Below are positions 3,632-40,850 of a stretch of DNA of 64,000 nucleotides, piece after piece. The stretch lies in the NCBI RefSeq assembly GCF_000719115.1, contig NZ_JOEA01000019.1, positions 1 through 64,000 on the forward strand, written 5' to 3'. A program made the translations under genes and the position numbers. This DNA is from Lentzea albidocapillata (lineage in GTDB: Bacteria; Actinomycetota; Actinomycetes; Mycobacteriales; Pseudonocardiaceae). Under the pieces are notes generated by a model, which was not told the DNA's origin, made no database searches, and was given only the letters and a program-made list of their open reading frames with translations. Within the stretch, counting starts at the first letter, position 1. Each line of letters begins with the position of its first letter.

Positions 3632-4531
3632 TCAGTGGACCAGGGTAAGGCGTGCGCGTCCTCTCGGCCCTGGTTCTCCGCCACCCGGTAGTGCGGTCAG
3701 CACTAGCCCGAACACCAGGCCGTTCAGTTCTTCCAGGCCCAGGTTCAGTTCTTTGGCCACGTGCAACGGTGTCGTGCCGTTCTCGCGGAGAACCCTGAAC
3801 ACCTTCGTGAGCAGCTTGGAGGTCTCCCGGCGCGTCATGCCGCCCTGCACGAGGCTGTGGACGTTCGCCCACTTCGTGAACTGGTCCCTGCCCACGTGCC
3901 AGTGCCGGTGGTCGGTGCCGGGCAGTTGTCGCTGGGGCATCAGGAACTCGGCGGCGAACTCGTGCGGCTCGTCGTGCCCGAGGAGCACGGCGAGCTGGAC
4001 AGCCGCGTCGAACCGGGCCTGCTCCGGTGTCGCCGACGGGGTGAGGAACACGAACGGTGTTCCGTTGTGCCAGCAGGAAAAAGCCATCTGCCCGGTGCAG
4101 TCGACCGGCAGTGAGAACACCCGCACACCGTGGGACTCGAGCAGCTGCACCATGTTCGGCGCCGGCCCGGTGGCGAGCCGCCACACGTCACGCGTGCCCT
4201 GCGGCGAGGTGCGCGGCGCCGGCAGGTCGGGCTGGGGGAGCACGAACAGCCGGTCCAGCCACCCGTTGAACTCGATCGCGAGCTGCGCCGCCGCCGTCGC
4301 CTGCGCGTCGTGCGGCGCGTTCTGCGGCCGTGGCGGTTCCGGTGCCGTCAGGAACTCGGCCGGGAAACCGAGCGCACCCGCCAGCGATTCGACGGCGGCG
4401 GTCTTGGGCCTGCGCTGCCCACGCTCGTACTCGCCGATGGCCCGTGCCGGCACGCCCGACTTCCGCGCCAGCTCGGCCGCGGTGAGTCCGCGCCGGGTGC
4501 GGGCGAGCGTGAGTCGCGAGGGCGTGAGCAT
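3632..4531 (-). CDS. XRE-family regulator with ImmA/IrrE-like C-terminal domain
   Basis: A 299-residue protein. Residues ~5-60 are a Cro/C1-type helix-turn-helix (LARTRRGLTAAELARKSGVP, YERGQRRPKTAA). The rest resembles the ImmA/IrrE metallopeptidase domain, with its conserved HEFAAEFLMP element. The zinc-binding HExxH that should precede that element is absent: the region reads AAVQLAVLLGHDEP. The peptidase activity is therefore probably lost and the domain may act only as a sensor. Classical members cleave a repressor to release mobile-element or stress genes. It is followed 18 bases later by a frameshifted membrane gene, likely its operon partner. Confidence 0.75.
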   Translation of the reverse strand: MLTPSRLTLARTRRGLTAAELARKSGVPARAIGEYERGQRRPKTAAVESLAGALGFPAEFLTAPEPPRPQNAPHDAQATAAAQLAIEFNGWLDRLFVLPQPDLPAPRTSPQGTRDVWRLATGPAPNMVQLLESHGVRVFSLPVDCTGQMAFSCWHNGTPFVFLTPSATPEQARFDAAVQLAVLLGHDEPHEFAAEFLMPQRQLPGTDHRHWHVGRDQFTKWANVHSLVQGGMTRRETSKLLTKVFRVLRENGTTPLHVAKELNLGLEELNGLVFGLVLTALPGGGEPGPRGRARLTLVH

Positions 4532-4602
4532 GATCCGGTCATTGTCGCTGGTGGCGCGGCGGACTGCCAGGCGGGTCCTGGTGCACCGGCCGGATCAGCG
4601 TG

Positions 4603-4638
4603 GCTCGGCTGTTCGGCGTAGCTCGGCTGTTCGGCGTA
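4603..4638. repeat. Tandem repeat, 2 x 18 bp
   Basis: Two perfect copies of GCTCGGCTGTTCGGCGTA at 4603-4620 and 4621-4638, followed by a partial third copy starting GCTTCGG. It lies between the divergent XRE gene and the membrane gene at 4650, in the likely promoter region of both, and could be a regulator binding site or simple slippage. Confidence 0.85.
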
Positions 4639-4649
4639 GCTTCGGGGAC

Positions 4650-4940: not shown

Positions 4941-5569
4941 CGGCGGAGCGCGATCGGGAAGTCCACCTCCTCCGGACCGTCCACATTGGGCGCCTTGAGC
5001 TGCGGGAACTCCATCGGCGGCAACGGAATCCGATGTGCCCACCGCTCGATGATCTGGTTCTGCGGCGTCGGCTCCGGCTGCGACACCTCGCGCAACACCA
5101 CGAGCCGGTCTTCGAGCTGCAGTGGATACGTCACCAGGAACCACAACTTCAGCCCCTCGGTGCGCACGTTCTCGAACAGCGCGAACTGGTCGTGGTCGTT
5201 GTCCCGCATCATCGCCGCGAGGGCGGGCCCCTTCGCGTAGTCGCTGCGCAACGGAGCCTCCGGCGACCCCGTGCCCCTGTTGCCCTGCAACGTGCCGAGC
5301 AGCACCGGGCGCGACGGGTGCCGGATCAGCCCGGCGTTCCAGTGGTCGAGGCGCTGCCACCCCTCCGCCGCCAGCAACTGCCGCAGCGTGCCCACCCGGT
5401 GGATCCAGTCGAGCAGGCCCGGCGCGTTGGTCGGCCCGAACGGCGGCGAGGCGGCGCGCGCGTCGATGCCGGCGGCGATCGCCCGGTCCAGGATCGCGGT
5501 GCGCAGGCCCAGGTCGGCGAGCCTGTCGCCGGCGGTGGGGGTGAGCTTGCGGAAGGCGGCGTTGGTCAT
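4937..5569 (-). CDS. Conserved-looking protein of unknown function
   Basis: A 210-residue soluble protein with balanced composition and strong GC third-position bias throughout, so clearly coding. Features include an N-terminal helical part (LADLGLRTAILDRAIAAGID), a central segment HWNAGLIRHPSRPVLLGTLQ, and a Pro-rich C-terminus (IPLPPMEFPQLKAPNVDGPE). There is no signal peptide, membrane helix or known motif. It starts at ATG 5569 without an obvious Shine-Dalgarno, so it may be leaderless. I cannot assign a family. Confidence 0.6.
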   Translation of the reverse strand: MTNAAFRKLTPTAGDRLADLGLRTAILDRAIAAGIDARAASPPFGPTNAPGLLDWIHRVGTLRQLLAAEGWQRLDHWNAGLIRHPSRPVLLGTLQGNRGTGSPEAPLRSDYAKGPALAAMMRDNDHDQFALFENVRTEGLKLWFLVTYPLQLEDRLVVLREVSQPEPTPQNQIIERWAHRIPLPPMEFPQLKAPNVDGPEEVDFPIALRR

Positions 5570-33123: not shown

Positions 33124-33140
33124 TGACCGCTACGCGGTCA
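33124..33140. terminator. Small hairpin between convergent genes
   Basis: TGACCGC (33124-33130) pairs with GCGGTCA (33134-33140) around TAC. It lies between the chdC stop and the peptidase stop. No T-run follows, so it is a weak terminator candidate. Confidence 0.4.
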
Positions 33141-36100
33141 CTCGATAAGCGCGGATCACCGTCAGCTCAACGGTTCCACCCTTGGCGTCCGTCGCGGTGG
33201 CCTTCAACGAAGTCCACTGCGCGTTCGCCGGGTTGTAGACCAACGCGTTGTTGCCGACCACGCCCGCACGGCGCCACGATTTGCCGTCGTCGTGCGAGTA
33301 CTGGACTCCGGTGATGCGCACCTTGCCCGCGTCACCCTGTGTCTGGGTGAGCAGTCCGATGCGCTGCAACGTGCCCGCGGGCACCGCGCCGTTGGCGTCG
33401 AGCTTCGGTTCGAACCTCACCACCGACAACGGCGGCGCGTCGATCTTGCCCTCGGTGCCCTGGGACTTGAAGGTCCACACCGCGGACACCTTGGTGCTGA
33501 ACTCGAACTGCGAGCTCCGGTCGACGCTCATCTCGGCGCGGAAGTCGGCCTGCGGCAGCGGCACGTTGAACACTCCGCCCGGCGTGGTGGTCTCGCCGAG
33601 CAGGACACCGTCGCGGTACAACGCGGTCCTGGCGCTGTCCACAGTGGACGTGCCGTCGCCGTGGGTGCCGTCGCTCGTCAGCGGCACGCCGACGTAGAAC
33701 TGCGTGCCGTACCGCTCGACGAACCCGTACTGCGACTCGGGCAGACCCGGCGAGAACACCGGCCGGACTTCGCGCTCCTGGTAGGTCTTGCCCGCCTTGT
33801 ACGTGCGGAGCGCCGAGGTGATGCGTTCCTGCGCGCCGTTGGCGTGCCGCGTCATGATCGCGGACTGCCAGCGCATGTCCTCGGTCGTCACGTAGTCGAC
33901 CGCGGTCGCGCCCGGCGCCACCGGGTACAGCGCGGTGCCGCCGCCCAAACCCTGTGGGGACAACGGCAACTCGCCCTTCGACGCCTGGCTGTTCGGCTTC
34001 TGGCCGCCGATGGTGGACTCGACCTTGGCCAGGTCCTTCCTGGCGGGCGCCTTGACGAGGCCGACGGGGAGGCCACCGGGAACCGGGTAGGCGAGCCGGT
34101 AGAACGTGTGCGGGTCGGCCGTGGTGTTGGCCTGCAGCATCGCGAGCGACGACAGGTCGCCGGGCGGCAGCGGTCCGCCGGCCTGAGCGATCCCGACACC
34201 CTCGAACCCGCCGAACACGAGCATGGTGCCCTGCAGGCGGCTCTGGCCGTCGACCGCGCGGCGGAACGCGATGATCCCGAGCGTGAAGTCACCGGTCTCC
34301 TCCGGCGCCTTCACCGACACGGGCTGGGCCAGGCGGGCGTCCTGCTTGACCGTCACGTCGCCGGTCAGCTTCACGGTGGGCTGGTAGAGCAGGTCCATGC
34401 CCCGCTCGCTGTTGTACAGCGTCGTGTCGAGGAAGTACGTGCCCTTGGGCAGGCGGATCTTCACGTCGCCCGTACCGGCGACCGGCTTGAACGTGTTGTT
34501 GTCCAGGCCGACCAGGAACGTGAACGAGGTCCCCGGATCCTGCCCGTCGCGACCGATCATGTCGATCGTGAGGGTGTAGCTCTCCACCTCGCGGTCGATG
34601 CCGACGAGCGTGCGGACGGTGTGCGAACCGGACGTGGCGACGACCTCGCCCGCGTACGCGGCGTCCTGGGTGCCGGCGCGCGAGTCACCGGTGACGTTGA
34701 CCGACGCGGTGCCCTTGGCCGGCACGGTGACCTTCGTGGCGCCCAGCGTGAACATGCCCGCCGGGGCACTGCCCTTGAACGCGAGGTCGAGCGTGATCGC
34801 CGCGTCCGTCGGGTTGGTGTAGGTGATCGCCTTGGTCACCGGCTTGTCGTCACCGTGCGGCCACTCGTGCAGGCCGAGGTTGACGGCGACGTCGCCGGTC
34901 AGCACCTGCTCGATCGCCTTGGCCACGTCGATGCGCCCGGCGCCCTGGTCGAACGCGCTGACGCCCTCGGCAGGCTTGGCCGTGGTCGCGAGCGCCGACT
35001 TGAGCTGCGCCGGCGTCCACTCCGGGTGCTGCTGTTTGAGCAACGCCGCCGCACCCGCCACGTGCGGGGTCGCCATGGACGTGCCGCTGGCTGCGAAGTG
35101 GTCCGCAGAACCGGCCTTGGCGGCGACGATGTCGACGCCCGGTGCGGTCACCTCGGGCTTGAGCCCGCTGTCTCCGACGCGAGGGCCCTTGCTGGAGAAC
35201 GGGGCGATCTTGTCGTCGCGGTCGACGGCGCCGACCGACAGCGCGGCCTCCGCCGTGCTGGGCGAGCTCACCGAGCCGGGCGAACCCGAGTTGCCCGCCG
35301 CGACGACGAACAGCGTGCCGTACTGGGCCGTCAGGTCGTTGACGGCCTGCTCCAGCGGGTCGACCTCGGGGGTGTCGCCACCGCCGAGGCTCATGTTGAC
35401 GACCTGGGCACCCTGCTCCGCCGCCCAGCGCATGCCGTCGAGGATCCAGGACTCCTGGCAGCCGAACTCGACGCAGACCTTCGCGTCGATGAGCTGCGCG
35501 CCCGGTGCGACGCCGCCGTACTTCGCGTCGTGGCTCGCGACCGTCGACCCGACGTGCGTGCCGTGGCCGACGTTGTCGGTGGTGTCGGGGTCGGACGTGA
35601 AGTTCTTCTCCGCGATCTGCTGACCGGCGAGGTCCGGGTGCTTCTCGTCGACACCGGTGTCGACGATCGCGACCTTGATCCCCTTGCCGGTGATGCCCTT
35701 CTGGTGGGCGGCCGGCGCGCCGATCTGGGCGACGCTGCGGTCGAGGCTCGGCTTGCGGATGCCGTCGAGCCAGACCTTGTCACCGGTCGCGGCCTCGGCC
35801 TTGAGCGCCGTCCAGTCGTTCGAGGACCGGGCACCGAGTCTCGCCCGGCCGTCCACGATCAACGGCATGCGGTCGCGGTAGCCGAACTCCAGCAACGTGG
35901 TGACGTCGAACAGTCTGCTGTCGAGCCGGCCCGCCGCCAGGGGCTCGAACGCGTCCTTCGGCACGACCATCGTGTGACCGTCCGCGGTGCGGGCGGTCTT
36001 GAAGGCCATGTTCCCGCGGCCCTCTCCGGGCTGGATCGCGACGACCTGCCTGTCGTGTCCCAGCAGGACCTTGTCGCCCGTGACGAGGGTGACCTCGTCG

Positions 36101-36213
36101 GCGGTCCTCTGCGGGGCGTTGCCCGCTGGTGGAGCGGCCGCGGCTGTGGCGGCCGGTGCCACGGTCAGGGCGAGCGCCGTGACGGCGCCCAGCACTTTGG
36201 ATTTTCCGCGCAT
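33130..36213 (-). CDS. Large secreted subtilisin-like serine protease (S8)
   Basis: A 1027-residue secreted protease. The signal peptide is at 1-27 (VLGAVTALALTVAPAATAAA), with a propeptide to about 155. The catalytic triad is Asp in KVAIVDTGVDEKHPD, His in NVGHGTHVGSTVASHD and Ser in AASGTSMATPHVAGAAALLK, with oxyanion Asn in FVVAAGNSGSPGS. The remaining ~580 residues are beta-rich repeats typical of large actinobacterial subtilases. One cysteine pair sits near KVCVEFGCQESW. Likely an extracellular scavenging protease. It is monocistronic. Confidence 0.93.
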   Translation of the reverse strand: MRGKSKVLGAVTALALTVAPAATAAAAPPAGNAPQRTADEVTLVTGDKVLLGHDRQVVAIQPGEGRGNMAFKTARTADGHTMVVPKDAFEPLAAGRLDSRLFDVTTLLEFGYRDRMPLIVDGRARLGARSSNDWTALKAEAATGDKVWLDGIRKPSLDRSVAQIGAPAAHQKGITGKGIKVAIVDTGVDEKHPDLAGQQIAEKNFTSDPDTTDNVGHGTHVGSTVASHDAKYGGVAPGAQLIDAKVCVEFGCQESWILDGMRWAAEQGAQVVNMSLGGGDTPEVDPLEQAVNDLTAQYGTLFVVAAGNSGSPGSVSSPSTAEAALSVGAVDRDDKIAPFSSKGPRVGDSGLKPEVTAPGVDIVAAKAGSADHFAASGTSMATPHVAGAAALLKQQHPEWTPAQLKSALATTAKPAEGVSAFDQGAGRIDVAKAIEQVLTGDVAVNLGLHEWPHGDDKPVTKAITYTNPTDAAITLDLAFKGSAPAGMFTLGATKVTVPAKGTASVNVTGDSRAGTQDAAYAGEVVATSGSHTVRTLVGIDREVESYTLTIDMIGRDGQDPGTSFTFLVGLDNNTFKPVAGTGDVKIRLPKGTYFLDTTLYNSERGMDLLYQPTVKLTGDVTVKQDARLAQPVSVKAPEETGDFTLGIIAFRRAVDGQSRLQGTMLVFGGFEGVGIAQAGGPLPPGDLSSLAMLQANTTADPHTFYRLAYPVPGGLPVGLVKAPARKDLAKVESTIGGQKPNSQASKGELPLSPQGLGGGTALYPVAPGATAVDYVTTEDMRWQSAIMTRHANGAQERITSALRTYKAGKTYQEREVRPVFSPGLPESQYGFVERYGTQFYVGVPLTSDGTHGDGTSTVDSARTALYRDGVLLGETTTPGGVFNVPLPQADFRAEMSVDRSSQFEFSTKVSAVWTFKSQGTEGKIDAPPLSVVRFEPKLDANGAVPAGTLQRIGLLTQTQGDAGKVRITGVQYSHDDGKSWRRAGVVGNNALVYNPANAQWTSLKATATDAKGGTVELTVIRAYRVTA

Positions 36214-36387: not shown

Positions 36388-36759
36388 TCAGTTCGACTGC
36401 CAGAACTTCCAGCGTGCCTTGCGCTTTTCTGACAGTTCGCCGGAGGCGCGGCACCATTCCGCGAACGCTGCTGCATCCTCGCGCGCGCGAGAGCCCGCAC
36501 GACGTGGATGTTCGGCGGCGTAGGCGTCGAAGAGCGACCGGAACCGGTCGCCGAGCTCGTCGGCGACCGCGGGTCCCAGCATCCGCACGATGCCGCGCCG
36601 TTTCGACAACAAGGCGCGGCGTTCGACGCCGAGGCGTTGTTCGTCGAATCCCGCCGGTGCCGGTCCGTTCGCGAGCAATGCATTTAGCAGCTCGGCCTGC
36701 TGGGCGGCAAGCCTTTCGCGTGCGGACGAAAGGCTGTTCTCGTTCACGATTTCAGTCAC
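36388..36759 (-). CDS. Small helical partner of the DUF692 enzyme
   Basis: A 123-residue, charged, helical, cytosolic protein (LSSARERLAAQQAELLNALL, RRALLSKRRGIVRMLGPAVA, AFAEWCRASGELSEKRKARW). Its ATG lies inside the DUF692 gene, an 8-bp overlap, which argues for a shared complex. DUF692 enzymes usually need a small partner that binds the substrate peptide (MbnC- or DUF2063-like). This protein occupies that position but I see no clear homology to those. Role inferred from context only. Confidence 0.65.
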   Translation of the reverse strand: MTEIVNENSLSSARERLAAQQAELLNALLANGPAPAGFDEQRLGVERRALLSKRRGIVRMLGPAVADELGDRFRSLFDAYAAEHPRRAGSRAREDAAAFAEWCRASGELSEKRKARWKFWQSN

Positions 36760-37570
36760 GATGTTTGTCCACGACCGCGCGGATCGCGGCCAGTTCGCCC
36801 GCGATTTCGGTGTCGGACGGGTAGTTGTCGTCCCGTTCCAGCAGAACGCCCGGCGGGGCGACGCGCGAGCACAGTTCGTCCAGCACTTCCAGGACTTCCG
36901 GCAGAACCGCGTGCGCGTGCGTGTCGTGGTAGATGTCGCCGTGCTGCTCGCCGCCGGCCACGTGCACGTACGCCAGGCGCTCCAGCGGGATCTCGTCGAG
37001 GAACCGCTCCGGGTCCGTGCCGATGTTGCGGGCGTTCGCGTAGAGGTTCGCGACGTCCACGAGCAGCCAGCAGTCCGTGCGCTCGACGAGCTCGGCCAGG
37101 AACTGGCCTTCGGACAGCTCGCCGTCCGGCCACTCCAGCAGCGCCGCGACGTTCTCCAGCGCGAGCGGCACGGGCAGGTTCCGCTGCGCCAGCTTCACGT
37201 TCGCGACGAGCACGTCGAGCGCGTCCCTGGTGCGCGGCACCGGCATCAGGTGGCCGGAGTCGAGCCCGCCCGCCCGCACGAAGCACACGTGGTCGCTGAC
37301 CATCGGCGCGCCGACCGCCTCGGCGACGGCGCCCAGGTGCTCGACCCGGTGGAGATCGACCTGGTCGGCGCTGCCCAGCGACAGCGACACCGCGTGGGGG
37401 AGCACCGGGACGCCACGCTCCAGCAGCAGCGTCACCGACTCCGGCAGGTGTCCGATGTGGAGGTTCTCCGCTACGACCTCGACGAAGTCCACGCCGGGCA
37501 ACCGTTCCACGGTCAGGTCGATCTCCGAACGCCAGCCGATGCCGACGCCCAGGTCCTTGATGCCCGCCAT
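36752..37570 (-). CDS. DUF692 multinuclear non-heme iron oxidative enzyme (MNIO)
   Basis: A 272-residue TIM-barrel protein of the DUF692/MbnB family. Characterised members use two or three irons and oxygen to modify cysteines or other residues of peptides. Candidate ligands visible are H59 (LPHAVSLSLG), H94 (VSDHVCF), E139/N140 (LALENVA), D172 and N175 (LLVDVANLYANARN), H203 (YVHVAGGEQH), H210 and H218/H220 (YHDTHAHAV). Its ATG overlaps the stop of a Cys-rich-tail membrane gene (TGATG) and its end overlaps the partner gene. Three Cys-rich neighbours are the obvious substrates (inference). Confidence 0.85.
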   Translation of the reverse strand: MAGIKDLGVGIGWRSEIDLTVERLPGVDFVEVVAENLHIGHLPESVTLLLERGVPVLPHAVSLSLGSADQVDLHRVEHLGAVAEAVGAPMVSDHVCFVRAGGLDSGHLMPVPRTRDALDVLVANVKLAQRNLPVPLALENVAALLEWPDGELSEGQFLAELVERTDCWLLVDVANLYANARNIGTDPERFLDEIPLERLAYVHVAGGEQHGDIYHDTHAHAVLPEVLEVLDELCSRVAPPGVLLERDDNYPSDTEIAGELAAIRAVVDKHRD

Positions 37571-38343
37571 CAGTCGCCTCCACCTCCGCCGCCGCCACAA
37601 CTGCTGCCGCCACCACTGCAGCTACTGCTGCTGCCCGACGAACAACTGCTGCCACCACAACCGCTGCTGCCACACCCGCTGCCGCAGCCGGCCGCGCTCG
37701 TGGCGCCTCTGTTTCCGGCCTTCCTCTTCCTCTTGCGTGGCAGCATCTTGACCACGCTCTGCGGCAGCCCGAAGAGCTCGCCGGCGCTCTGATTGCCGAT
37801 CCTGCCGCGGAAACCCTCCAATGCCACCGCGAGAACCCTGTCGCTCGCGGTCACGTCCTTCAACGCGGCCCGGCCCGCCCTGGTGAGCGGTTTCGCGCCA
37901 TACGTCCAATATGCGACCCCCAGGAACCCTGCCGCGCCGAAGAGGGTCCACGGCTCCAGGAAGGCGGCCAGGCTCAGGACGGCGCCGATCGCGAGGAAGA
38001 CCCACCACGCCGCGAGCCGGGGACGGGGATCGCGGGTCAGCCCGCGTGCCCGCAGCTGCTGGTGCAGCGTCCGCATCTCCGCGCTTTTCGCGGCGTTCCG
38101 CACGACCGCGTCGAACCGGACCGCCTTGCGCAGGTTGACGAGAATGAACGTCTCGACCGCGGTCGAGGCGCCCAGCTCGGTCTGGTGCACGGCGGACACG
38201 AGCCCGTCGCGCGACACCCGCACCAGATCGGCGTCGAGCAGCCTGGCCAGCGCGGTCTCCGCCGCCCGGCCGGGTCCTGCCACCAGGTAGCCGATCTGCT
38301 CCGGGGGCAACCGCGTTCCGCGTGCTGTCGTCGATGTCGCCAT
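37570..38343 (-). CDS. TIGR04222-like membrane protein with Cys/Gly/Ser tail (copy 1)
   Basis: A 257-residue protein. Residues ~10-110 form the conserved cytosolic domain (EQIGYLVAGPGRAAETALAR, LVRVSRDGLVSAVHQ). Two membrane segments lie at ~130-170 (WWVFLAIGAVLSLAAFLEPW, FGAAGFLGVAYWTY). After a basic KRKRK stretch comes a ~44-residue low-complexity tail with six cysteines spaced by Gly/Ser, ending SSCGGGGGGGD. The architecture matches the NCBIfam family TIGR04222 ('near uncomplex'). Stop and start overlap the MNIO gene (TGATG). The tail is the likely target of oxidative modification, an inference from coupling. Confidence 0.75.
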   Translation of the reverse strand: MATSTTARGTRLPPEQIGYLVAGPGRAAETALARLLDADLVRVSRDGLVSAVHQTELGASTAVETFILVNLRKAVRFDAVVRNAAKSAEMRTLHQQLRARGLTRDPRPRLAAWWVFLAIGAVLSLAAFLEPWTLFGAAGFLGVAYWTYGAKPLTRAGRAALKDVTASDRVLAVALEGFRGRIGNQSAGELFGLPQSVVKMLPRKRKRKAGNRGATSAAGCGSGCGSSGCGGSSCSSGSSSSCSGGGSSCGGGGGGGD

Positions 38344-39188
38344 CAGTCGCCTTCTCCTCCGCCGCCGCAGCTGCCACCGCTGCAACTCGAACCGCTCGAA
38401 CTACTGCAACCTCAACTGCTGGAACTGCTGCAGCTACTACTGCTGCTACTGCTACAACTCGAGCTGCTGCTGCTGCTGGAACAACTGCTACTGGAACTGC
38501 TGCAACTGCTCGAACTGTTGCTCGAACAACTCGACGTTCCGCCGCAACTGTGGTGGTTCCAGTCGTACGAGCTGCAACTGGCGGCGACGTACGAAGTGGA
38601 CGACGTCGAGCGCTGCTTGCCCCGGCGCAGGCCGAACAACGCCACGGCGCCCGCACTGCTGTCCGGATTCCTCAGCGCGTACGTCAACACGGTCTTGCCG
38701 TTCCTCGTGAGCCTGCCCGGCTTGCGCAGCAGGATCACGACCAGCACCAGCAGTGCCGTCAGCAGGAACAGCCACGGGTCGACGATGACGGCGACGAACA
38801 TCGAGACGAAGGCCAGCAGGAACACCACCAGCCGCAACGCCGCCCTGCCGCCGCCTGGCCTGCCGAACTCGCGGTGCACCATTCCGCGGGCGACGAGGCT
38901 CGCCTGGAACGCGGCCATCTCGTGACTGGCCATCGCGACCTGCACGACCTGGTTGATCGGGCGGGCGGTGCCCTGCAGTCCCGCGAGGACGTACGCCTCC
39001 AGCGGGGTTGTGGCGCCGTAACCGTTCTGGTGGACGGCGGTCACGAGTCCCTCGCGGGAGACGCGCACGAGACCGCCGTCCAGCAGCCGGGCGAGAACGG
39101 CCTCCGCCGCCCTGCCCGGTCCCCCTGCCAGGAACCCGATCTCCTCCGCGGACCACGTGGTCCGGTGCGGTGCCGAAGACTCGGACAT
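38343..39188 (-). CDS. TIGR04222-like membrane protein with Cys/Ser tail (copy 2), in-frame TGA
   Basis: A 281-codon gene counted through an internal TGA. The domain matches copy 1 (EEIGFLAGGPGRAAEAVLAR, LVRVSREGLVTAVHQNGY), with membrane segments near 122-160 (LVVFLLAFVSMFVAVIVDPW). The tail is almost pure Ser with regular Cys. At 38412-38414 the frame meets TGA, but the same frame then continues GCSSSSGSSCSGGSCGGGG and EGD to a TGA at 38343, forming TGATG with copy 1, exactly like the copy 1/MNIO junction. So the true end is probably 38343. The TGA may be a nonsense mutation, a sequencing error, readthrough or recoding. ATG 39188 has GGGGAG upstream. Confidence 0.65.
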
Positions 39189-39277
39189 CAGCACTCCCCT
39201 CACTGGTGTCAGTGCATCTTCGACGTGAGATCTACCCCTGGGTTCCTGTTGTTACCTGAATAGGACCGAACGACCGA

Positions 39278-40171
39278 TCAGCCGCCGCCACCACCACCGC
39301 AGCCGCCGCCCCCGCCCCCGCAGCTGCTTCCGCTTGAACACGAAGAAGAACCGGCTGAACACGTGCTGTGGCTGCTGCCGCCGCTGTAGCCGCCGGAACC
39401 GGAGGAGGCGAGCAACGAGGTGCGCACCGCCAGATCCGGGTAGACGACGAGACCGCCGAAGAGGACCGCGCCGGCCGCGCCCGCGTACACGACCTCGTCC
39501 ACGCTTCCCGCGGCACTGGTGCTCGTGCGGCGAGCGTCGTCGAGGACGCGGTCGCCCTTGCGGGTGCGGATGTGCCTGTCGCGCCGGGTCAGGCGCAGCG
39601 TCAGGATCAGCAGGCCGGTGAGGACGAGCTGCACCATGAGCCAGCCGATGTTCGCGCCGATCGCGAGGCCGTTCACCCAGCGTGCGAACCCGATCACGAT
39701 CAGCACCCACAACGCGATGGATCCCTTGCGCAGCGCGCTTTTCGCGACGGCCGGGTTGACGACGAGGCCCATGGCCTCGAGGCGCTGCCCGATGGCCGTG
39801 ACCGCGCCGTCCTCGGCGACGGCGGGGATCATGAGGTTGACCGTGCGGTTGGTGTAGCGCTGGCAGTCGGTGACGACGGCGCGGTCCACCGGGTTGAGCG
39901 ACCGCGTGGTGGACGTGACCTGAACGGTGCCGCGCCGTGAAGTCCTGAGCTCACCCGCGGTGAGCAGTCGCGCGACGGCCGTCTCGACCACGCGCCTTGG
40001 ACCGCCCGCAAGATATGCGAGCTCGTCCATGTCGAGGGAGCGCACGGGCTGGGTGCTGTGACCCGCCCGCACGCGTACCCGGACGACGATCGCGACCAGC
40101 ACGGCCAGTGCCAGCCCGATCCAGTACAGCTGAAGGAACTCCGGTCCTGACAATCCCCAAGGCCTTGGCAT
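39278..40171 (-). CDS. TIGR04222-like membrane protein with Cys/Gly tail (copy 3)
   Basis: A 297-residue paralogue with an extra N-terminal membrane helix (LQLYWIGLALAVLVAIVV) before the conserved domain (DELAYLAGGPRRVVETAVAR, GELRTSRRGTVQVTS). Two more membrane segments are at ~160-205 (IALWVLIVIGFARWVNGLAI, WLMVQLVLTGLLILTLRL). The tail has four cysteines in Ser/Gly sequence and ends in CGGGGG. ATG 40171 follows GGGGGTGG at good spacing; a GTG at 40180 overlaps that site. About 90 bases separate it from copy 2. Likely first large gene of the MNIO operon. Confidence 0.72.
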   Translation of the reverse strand: MPRPWGLSGPEFLQLYWIGLALAVLVAIVVRVRVRAGHSTQPVRSLDMDELAYLAGGPRRVVETAVARLLTAGELRTSRRGTVQVTSTTRSLNPVDRAVVTDCQRYTNRTVNLMIPAVAEDGAVTAIGQRLEAMGLVVNPAVAKSALRKGSIALWVLIVIGFARWVNGLAIGANIGWLMVQLVLTGLLILTLRLTRRDRHIRTRKGDRVLDDARRTSTSAAGSVDEVVYAGAAGAVLFGGLVVYPDLAVRTSLLASSGSGGYSGGSSHSTCSAGSSSCSSGSSCGGGGGGCGGGGGG

Positions 40172-40300
40172 TCGACCCACCCCCTGACTGCCCCGAAAGT
40201 GCTTCGGTGAGTCAATGGTGTGGTCCGCGCCACAGCCTCACAAGGCTTGTTGACGAAGCCTTAGGGTTGCCCGCCTTCTGCCCCCGTTTTCTGCTTATGG

Positions 40301-40375
40301 CTAGCTGGACGAGCCGCCATCGACTCCGCCGGAGCCTTCGCCGTCAGTGCCACGCAGGGCGATGCGGAAGATCAT
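40301..40375 (-). CDS. 24-codon ORF with strong ribosome binding site
   Basis: A 24-residue ORF, too short for usual gene calling. The start ATG at 40375 is preceded by GGGAGG with 4 bases spacing, among the best Shine-Dalgarno sites in the window. The peptide begins MIFRIALRGTDGEG and ends in a Gly/Ser run. It lies 129 bases upstream of copy 3 on the same strand, so it could be a leader peptide or a small operon member. It has no cysteine. The remaining bases of the 247-base gap (40181-40427) hold no other signal I can support. Confidence 0.4.
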   Translation of the reverse strand: MIFRIALRGTDGEGSGGVDGGSSS

Positions 40376-40427: not shown

Positions 40428-40850
40428 CTATTCGGACGGAACGAGTTTCAAGGAGACGGAGTTGATGCAGTACCGCTGGTCCGTCGGCGTGGGGTACCCC
40501 TCGCCCTCGAAAACATGCCCGAGGTGGCTGTGACACGTGGCGCAGAGCACCTCCACGCGTTTCATGCCGAGGGCGCGGTCTTCACGCAGGATGACCGCTT
40601 CGCCGGCCAGCGGTGAGAAGAACGACGGCCAACCGCAGTGCGAGTCGAACTTGGTGTCACTGCGGAAGAGTTCGGCCCCGCAGGCACGGCACTCGTAGAG
40701 GCCCTCGGTCTTGGTCTCGGTGTACTCGCCGGTCCATGGACGTTCGGTGCCCGCCTGCCGCAGCACCGCGAACTCGGCGGGGTTGAGCTGGGCGCGCCAT
40801 TCCTCTTCGGAACGCACGACTTTGGGGGTGGCGCCGACAACAGGTTCCAT
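40428..40850 (-). CDS. msrB: Peptide-methionine (R)-S-oxide reductase
   Basis: A 140-residue MsrB, which reduces methionine-R-sulfoxide in proteins. The zinc site is formed by CRACG (about residue 55) and CATCHSHLGHVF (about residue 104), the substrate pocket by DTKFDSHCGWPSFF, and the catalytic Cys is in QRYCINSVSLK near the C-terminus. Length is normal. Monocistronic, with a hairpin upstream. Confidence 0.96.
   Translation of the reverse strand: MEPVVGATPKVVRSEEEWRAQLNPAEFAVLRQAGTERPWTGEYTETKTEGLYECRACGAELFRSDTKFDSHCGWPSFFSPLAGEAVILREDRALGMKRVEVLCATCHSHLGHVFEGEGYPTPTDQRYCINSVSLKLVPSE

Follow-up and report, generated by a model that had tools for sequence, protein, structure and literature searches.

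The operon studied here lies in a 64,000-nucleotide window of Lentzea albidocapillata (contig NZ_JOEA01000019.1, positions 1 to 64,000). It encodes, 5' to 3' on the minus strand, three TIGR04222 membrane proteins with Cys-rich C-terminal tails (T1, T2 and T3), an MNIO (DUF692) enzyme and a small partner protein (Table 1). The operon is probably a TIGR04222-MNIO-PME-type 2 protein-modification system, in which the MNIO enzyme and its partner would oxidise tail Cys residues in the cytosol and produce membrane-tethered metal-binding tails. Clusters of this kind have already been described as encoding probable protein substrates (Antoine et al. 2025, PMC12452194), and the window locus is a further member.

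The mode of action proposed for the operon is as follows. The MNIO enzyme and the 123-aa partner would oxidise Cys in the tails of T1, T2 and T3. For T2 and T3 at least, the reaction would occur at the cytoplasmic membrane surface, a location that enzyme and tail would share. Instead of being cut off like a leader, the folded core with its transmembrane (TM) hairpin would be retained as a permanent anchor. The modified tails would together form multi-site ligands tethered to the membrane, most probably binding a soft metal such as copper, and may help defend against oxidative stress. Capacity would scale with the tandem copies and their variable tails. Gene content, conservation, linkage, the iron-ligand residues and the coupling of tail Cys to MNIO are observed; the modification, its cytosolic site and the metal role are what we infer. 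With cytosolic tails and a membrane-bound product, the system would modify whole proteins in place and secrete no peptide, and both the search for the product and the choice of stress conditions would shift accordingly. PMC12452194 collected more than 3,500 TIGR04222 proteins at less than 90% identity, a large group of putative MNIO substrates whose modification and role it gives as still to be investigated. Because tail Cys is coupled to MNIO across genomes, as described below, the substrate question is testable by comparison and in culturable actinomycetes.

Assignment of the MNIO enzyme and its partner

The MNIO protein scored 279.4 bits against PF05114 (gathering cut-off 25), and T1, T2 and T3 scored 130.9, 72.1 and 67.9 bits against NCBIfam TIGR04222 (cut-off 43); TM segments and a low-complexity tail were also present. 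The multi-iron ligands of TglH (His71, His107, Glu151, Asp184, Asn187, His216, Asp229, His231 and Glu258) were compared with the window MNIO, where the whole set was found as H60, H95, E140, D173, N176, H204, D217, H219 and E246 (numbered on a query sequence that begins one residue ahead of the start Met). H60, standing for His71, was placed by the 3bww alignment only, and the other eight align to TglH. All nine residues are invariant in an alignment of 12 MNIO sequences. The BufB model gave the best score (197.5 bits), followed by HvfB (166.8), and MbnB gave 54.4; these values lie under the respective cut-offs (310, 360 and 325), for MbnB by a wide margin.

The partner scored 19.6 bits against DUF2063 (cut-off 27.2) and falls outside PME-type 1. 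Its DUF2063-like fold, the lack of a DUF2063 signature and the position of its gene after MNIO are those of PME-type 2, and its model has MbnC as best match. The adjacent TIGR04222, MNIO and PME-type 2 genes agree with the cluster definition of PMC12452194.

Conservation and linkage of tail genes and MNIO

MNIO was found in all 24 Lentzea genomes compared, with partner and TIGR04222 genes at each of the 24 loci. Sixteen loci hold three TIGR04222 genes, six hold four, one holds five and one, cut by a contig end, holds two. Complete loci thus contain 3 to 5, so that the triplication, first taken as distinctive, is one state of a variable array. Cys, Ser and Gly make up 90% of the 77 Lentzea tails. 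Ser codons of both families occur in the tails (AGY 1067, TCN 473), evidence against simple triplet slippage. Of 22 T1 genes, 19 have the tail block SSCSSGSSCGGGG without change; its proportion of synonymous differences (pS) is 0.49, versus 0.22 for the MNIO gene (20 sequences). This block was selected by its amino-acid sequence, which biases its proportion of nonsynonymous differences (pN) low, so the 19/22 and pS are the fair measures.

Outside the genus, the 80 nearest MNIO loci were taken as the best among the matches listed; they were chosen by similarity, are not random and include 11 from Lentzea. They were scanned with hidden Markov models built from the Lentzea proteins. The partner was found in 79 (the remaining locus, L130, ends about 0.5 kb past MNIO) and a TIGR04222 (T) gene in 74, with at least two Cys in the last 90 aa of a T gene in 73. 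Of the six loci without a T gene, three are truncated, L091 and L115 on the upstream side and L130 on the downstream side. L131, L133 and L153 are not explained by locus ends, L153 having only about 2.4 kb downstream. In the Streptomyces loci with a T gene, this gene comes after MNIO, not before. MNIO and partner form a single open frame in 23 of the 80 loci, all from Streptomyces. SCO6045 of S. coelicolor is, we infer from its domain name and these single frames, such an MNIO-partner protein. Its gene was 3.0-fold up in the wild type after 0.15 mM H2O2; it is listed with other up-regulated genes, cysteine and sulfonate genes among them, a set deregulated in the mutant of the HbpS-SenS-SenR system (PMC4991794).

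Co-occurrence was then counted in 108 genomes drawn over the class, with TIGR04222 scored over its cut-off. MNIO was present in 25 and TIGR04222 in 31 (both, 20; MNIO only, 5; TIGR04222 only, 11; neither, 72; one-sided Fisher test, p = 8e-10). Of the 20 genomes carrying both, 17 have the two genes within 3 kb of each other (exceptions G347, G387 and G395). A Cys tail, defined as at least three Cys in the last 70-80 aa, was found in 15 of these 20 versus 1 of the 11 with T only (two-sided p = 6e-4). Shared ancestry was uncorrected in both tests and the p-values overstate independence; the 31 T-bearing genomes are few and related. In G347 the Cys cluster is internal to the frame and not terminal. 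Four T-only tails have GGGDGGGD-like ends (G349, G361, G397 and G413) and the remaining T-only tails are mixed. Co-occurrence of the tail genes with DUF692 in other genomes had been set beforehand as a test and was upheld (20 of 25 MNIO genomes). The idea of the initial annotation that membrane-tethered tails are likely MNIO substrates, served by a small partner, is strengthened by the linkage, by this co-occurrence, by the absence of a Cys tail from 10 of 11 MNIO-less T genomes and by the single frames.

Several genomes weigh against this idea. In G374, the T-only genome with a Cys tail, no MNIO was found and the T gene lies at a contig end. Five genomes with both genes, all from genus g90, have a T gene lacking a Cys tail next to their MNIO-partner single frame, and no further Cys tail was found in these five; another g90 genome, G348, has one. 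Five MNIO genomes carry no T gene over the cut-off, one of them (G373) having a minimal Cys-tail protein. Given the Cys-less T genes of g90 and the T-less MNIO genomes, the tails may not be the only substrate.

MNIO might act on some other substrate, the tails being a scaffold, a sensor or a membrane recruiter. A candidate is a 24-aa small open reading frame (sORF) upstream of T1, conserved, unannotated and preceded by a Shine-Dalgarno sequence (MIFRIALRGTDGEGSGGVDGGSSS; Table 1). It is coding-like (pS 0.31, pN 0.023); its core, located by its sequence, is present in 23 of 24 Lentzea loci, and the sORF occurs in 11 of 120 family genomes, always between msrB and T1. Some MNIO-partner loci also lack Cys-tailed genes. 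Such a substrate is nevertheless quite unlikely: nothing sORF-like was found in 20 msrB-T gaps of other loci, the copies read have no Cys, save one, and tail Cys tracks MNIO across genomes. The sORF had no Pfam or NCBIfam match. A DNA pattern search for its core matched 160 of 298 genomes of the order and was too unspecific to use.

Also unlikely is the reading that the tails bind metal or form disulfides as low-complexity segments without modification, their linkage to MNIO being incidental. TIGR04222 proteins do exist without MNIO, and the Gly/Asp tails of some MNIO-less genomes suggest a tail role independent of it, but the linkage is tight, the genes overlap and Cys tails are missing from nearly all MNIO-less T genomes, as counted above.

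Topology of the tails

TM hairpins were called in 187 T proteins with a simple and crude hydropathy rule. A hairpin was found in 137, of which 131 have a positive-inside pattern with both ends in and 6 are ambiguous or tail-out. Mean numbers of Lys and Arg were 3.6 before, 0.6 in and 3.8 after the hairpin. In the window T2 and T3, the hairpin turns are DP and EP, with positively charged flanks on either side. This pattern suggests that the tails are cytoplasmic, contrary to the published periplasmic reading.

On the other side of the balance, 50 of the 187 proteins had no hairpin call: 32 have fewer than two segments, including 28 Lentzea T3-type genes whose second helix scores low, and 18 have no hairpin. 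T1 has a fourth hydrophobic segment (227-245) which, if membrane-spanning, would put its tail outside, so that the side of the T1 tail is less certain. PMC12452194 also places TIGR04222 tails in the periplasm for its examples, from predicted TM-segment topology. The tails would then be modified by MNIO but exported and cell-wall-facing, like bufferins. This keeps some weight but appears unlikely: T2 and T3 have a single short hairpin bordered on each outer side by positive charge, the fourth segment of T1 is split in the AlphaFold 2 (AF2) model (pLDDT 83.9) into two short helices (224-228 and 232-239), and the minimal proteins described next have their basic stretch on the tail side. The suggestion that the tails yield 'surface-active' peptides found no support, as they look cytosolic.

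Two MNIO loci without an adjacent TIGR04222 gene, L247 (the second MNIO of G395) and L254 (G373), carry Cys-tail proteins of 88 and 90 aa. Both have one hydrophobic helix, a basic stretch (RLLRATVYGRRPSRRRW; FNRTARRSSHGRRRAGW) and then a Gly-rich Cys tail, a charge pattern that would place the tail inside. These one-helix proteins are possibly a minimal substrate, and the two cases suggest that anchor plus tail is the unit accompanying MNIO. They were matched in a search for a Cys-rich-tail pattern covering 17 loci, 15 with MNIO, which missed the internal Cys cluster of G347. The search also matched in L252, at a distance of 4 kb and on the other strand; this match was taken as unrelated.

Losses and variants in the tail-gene array

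The initial annotation had listed TGATG overlaps at two junctions and an 8-bp overlap at a third. The T3/MNIO TGATG and the 8-bp MNIO/partner overlap (36752-36759) were retrieved, but TGATG 38341-38345 is not the T2/T3 junction. The T2 stop precedes T3 by 68 bases, with 22 intervening codons in the T2 frame. Together with the first 30 bases of T3, this segment aligns to L048 with 91% identity over 101 columns, matching the end of an additional tail-gene copy there and the start of the gene that follows it, and to L049 with 85% over 98 columns. By this alignment the TGATG is what remains of a tail gene that was lost here and is intact in L048. The T2 tail of L050 is fused straight to a late tail end. 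The array seems to lose copies through recombination within tails.

The TGA lies in frame inside a Cys-rich tail, and the genome has a tRNA-Sec (77.8 bits) with a SelB-like match, under the SelB cut-off, about 1.3 kb off. Selenocysteine at this codon, or a broken gene, is nonetheless practically out of the question. Selenocysteine was rejected because 21 of the 22 other T2 genes read terminate at the equivalent position (TGA, TAG or TAA), only the L050 fusion differing; moreover, the codons past the window's TGA match the end of a tail gene that is separate in L048.

Some array members depart from the common form. One of three T genes in L069 (4573-5373) lacks tail Cys and has an acidic aromatic end, beside Cys-tailed copies. 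The middle T genes of L088-L090, L092, L093 and L095 likewise have Cys-less tails with acidic aromatic ends next to Cys-tailed copies. In two draft genomes a frame is interrupted, through sequencing error or decay: MNIO in G011 (L070, 4056-4867) and T1 in G015 (L054, 2324-3201), with positions given in operon orientation. The window's own genome has a fourth TIGR04222 protein with a Cys tail (L072, C15:102713-103336) on a contig other than that of the MNIO operon, and the single MNIO of the genome might modify it in trans.

The TIGR04222 core

The TIGR04222 core weakly resembles GOLPH3/Vps74 (GPP34, PF05719) and DUF2207_C (PF20990) in predicted fold and profile (Foldseek E 1.1; hhalign probability 87 and 70). 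Two loci were dropped from each set when the profiles were built, leaving 28 of 30 for GPP34 and 21 of 23 for DUF2207_C. No similarity was found between the DUF2207_C and GPP34 profiles (probability 0.1), which weakens the idea that the three form one family. Searches of solved structures with the T and partner alignments returned no GOLPH3 and no MNIO partner; they gave tail-composition matches, winged-helix proteins (CRP, MarR) and one ChaB match, none strong for the core. The TM hairpin and low-complexity tail set TIGR04222 apart from both. The GPP34 protein SCO4440 has been linked to wall-deficient cells in S. coelicolor (PMC12402492).

Tentatively, and with less confidence than for the modification system itself, MNIO-linked TIGR04222 proteins may be GOLPH3-like anchors with a TM hairpin, whose uncleaved cytosolic Cys tails would be oxidised at multiple sites by a cytosolic MNIO-partner pair to give an intracellular membrane-bound metal sponge. 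The tail would be portable, as on a bare one-helix anchor, with Asp replacing Cys in some MNIO-less lineages.

Relation to known MNIO systems

The bufferins (BufABC) and oxazolins (HvfABC) likewise have Cys-rich substrates; they differ in that the window substrate would be a membrane protein. Methanobactin synthesis (MbnABC) also uses an enzyme and a partner, whereas no short Cys precursor peptide was found at the window locus. The locus had been called unlike described pathways for ribosomally synthesized and post-translationally modified peptides that use MNIO. This finds no support, as PMC12452194 already has the architecture without a short precursor and with a short PME-type 2 partner. 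Its clusters, like the window locus, consist of the same gene families and come mostly from Actinomycetota, and it models the 115-aa partner of Saccharothrix NRRL B-16314, a strain whose locus was compared here (L092). In the available text of that paper, a tandem array of 3-5 tail genes, per-genome Cys/MNIO coupling, a cytosolic topology, single-frame MNIO-partner proteins, one-helix tails and a GOLPH3-like core were not found, and the terms GOLPH3, Golgi and SCO6045 are absent.

Organization of the locus and its neighbourhood

The DUF692 gene, its small overlapping partner and the three tandem TIGR04222 genes were located on a single strand as first annotated (Table 1).

Table 1. Features of the operon and its surroundings, with the one-helix tail proteins of two other loci
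Feature	Position	Strand	Description
Subtilisin-like secreted peptidase	33130-36213	minus	1027 aa; putative, named by eye
Partner, PME-type 2 like / SCO6045-like C-terminal domain	36388-36759	minus	123 aa; GTG start
MNIO (DUF692 / MbnB_TglH_ChrH)	36752-37570	minus	272 aa; PF05114
T3, TIGR04222 protein	37570-38343	minus	257 aa; TM hairpin; Gly/Ser tail, 6 Cys
Relic of deleted tail gene	38344-38411	minus	last 22 codons and two stop bases, in frame past T2 stop
T2, TIGR04222 protein	38412-39188	minus	258 aa; TM hairpin; Ser-rich tail, 7 Cys; TGA stop 38412-38414
Putative ECF-sigma-like promoter	39222-39246	minus	GGAAC-N16-CGTC, 5' of T2
T1, TIGR04222 membrane protein	39278-40171	minus	297 aa; 3 predicted TM helices, 4th possible; tail with 4 Cys
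Inverted repeat	40242-40262	minus	AAGGCTT-N7-AAGCCTT, 5' of T1; possible operator/promoter
sORF	40301-40375	minus	24 aa; between msrB and T1
msrB	40428-40850	minus	methionine sulfoxide reductase; upstream of operon
One-helix protein, L247 (G395)	4379-4645		88 aa with plausible start; 33 bp after MNIO
One-helix protein, L254 (G373)	5199-5471	reverse	operon orientation; 90 aa with plausible start; 521 bp after MNIO

The motif 5' of T2 (GGAAC-N16-CGTC) is presumably a promoter of the extracytoplasmic function (ECF) sigma type. The pattern occurs 9 times within the window, so a match alone is weak and only its conservation counts: both halves are kept across 22 aligned T1-T2 intergenic regions. 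The inverted repeat 5' of T1 is largely kept in 23 aligned msrB-T1 regions, its right arm being variable.

The msrB gene is found upstream in 23 of the 24 Lentzea loci, the remaining one being the contig-cut locus, and likewise in many Pseudonocardiaceae loci; it is a possible link of the operon to oxidative stress. The subtilisin-like peptidase is encoded just 3' of the partner gene, and many of the first 60 loci, such as those of Lentzea, Umezawaea, Saccharothrix and Actinokineospora, have a relative of it downstream.

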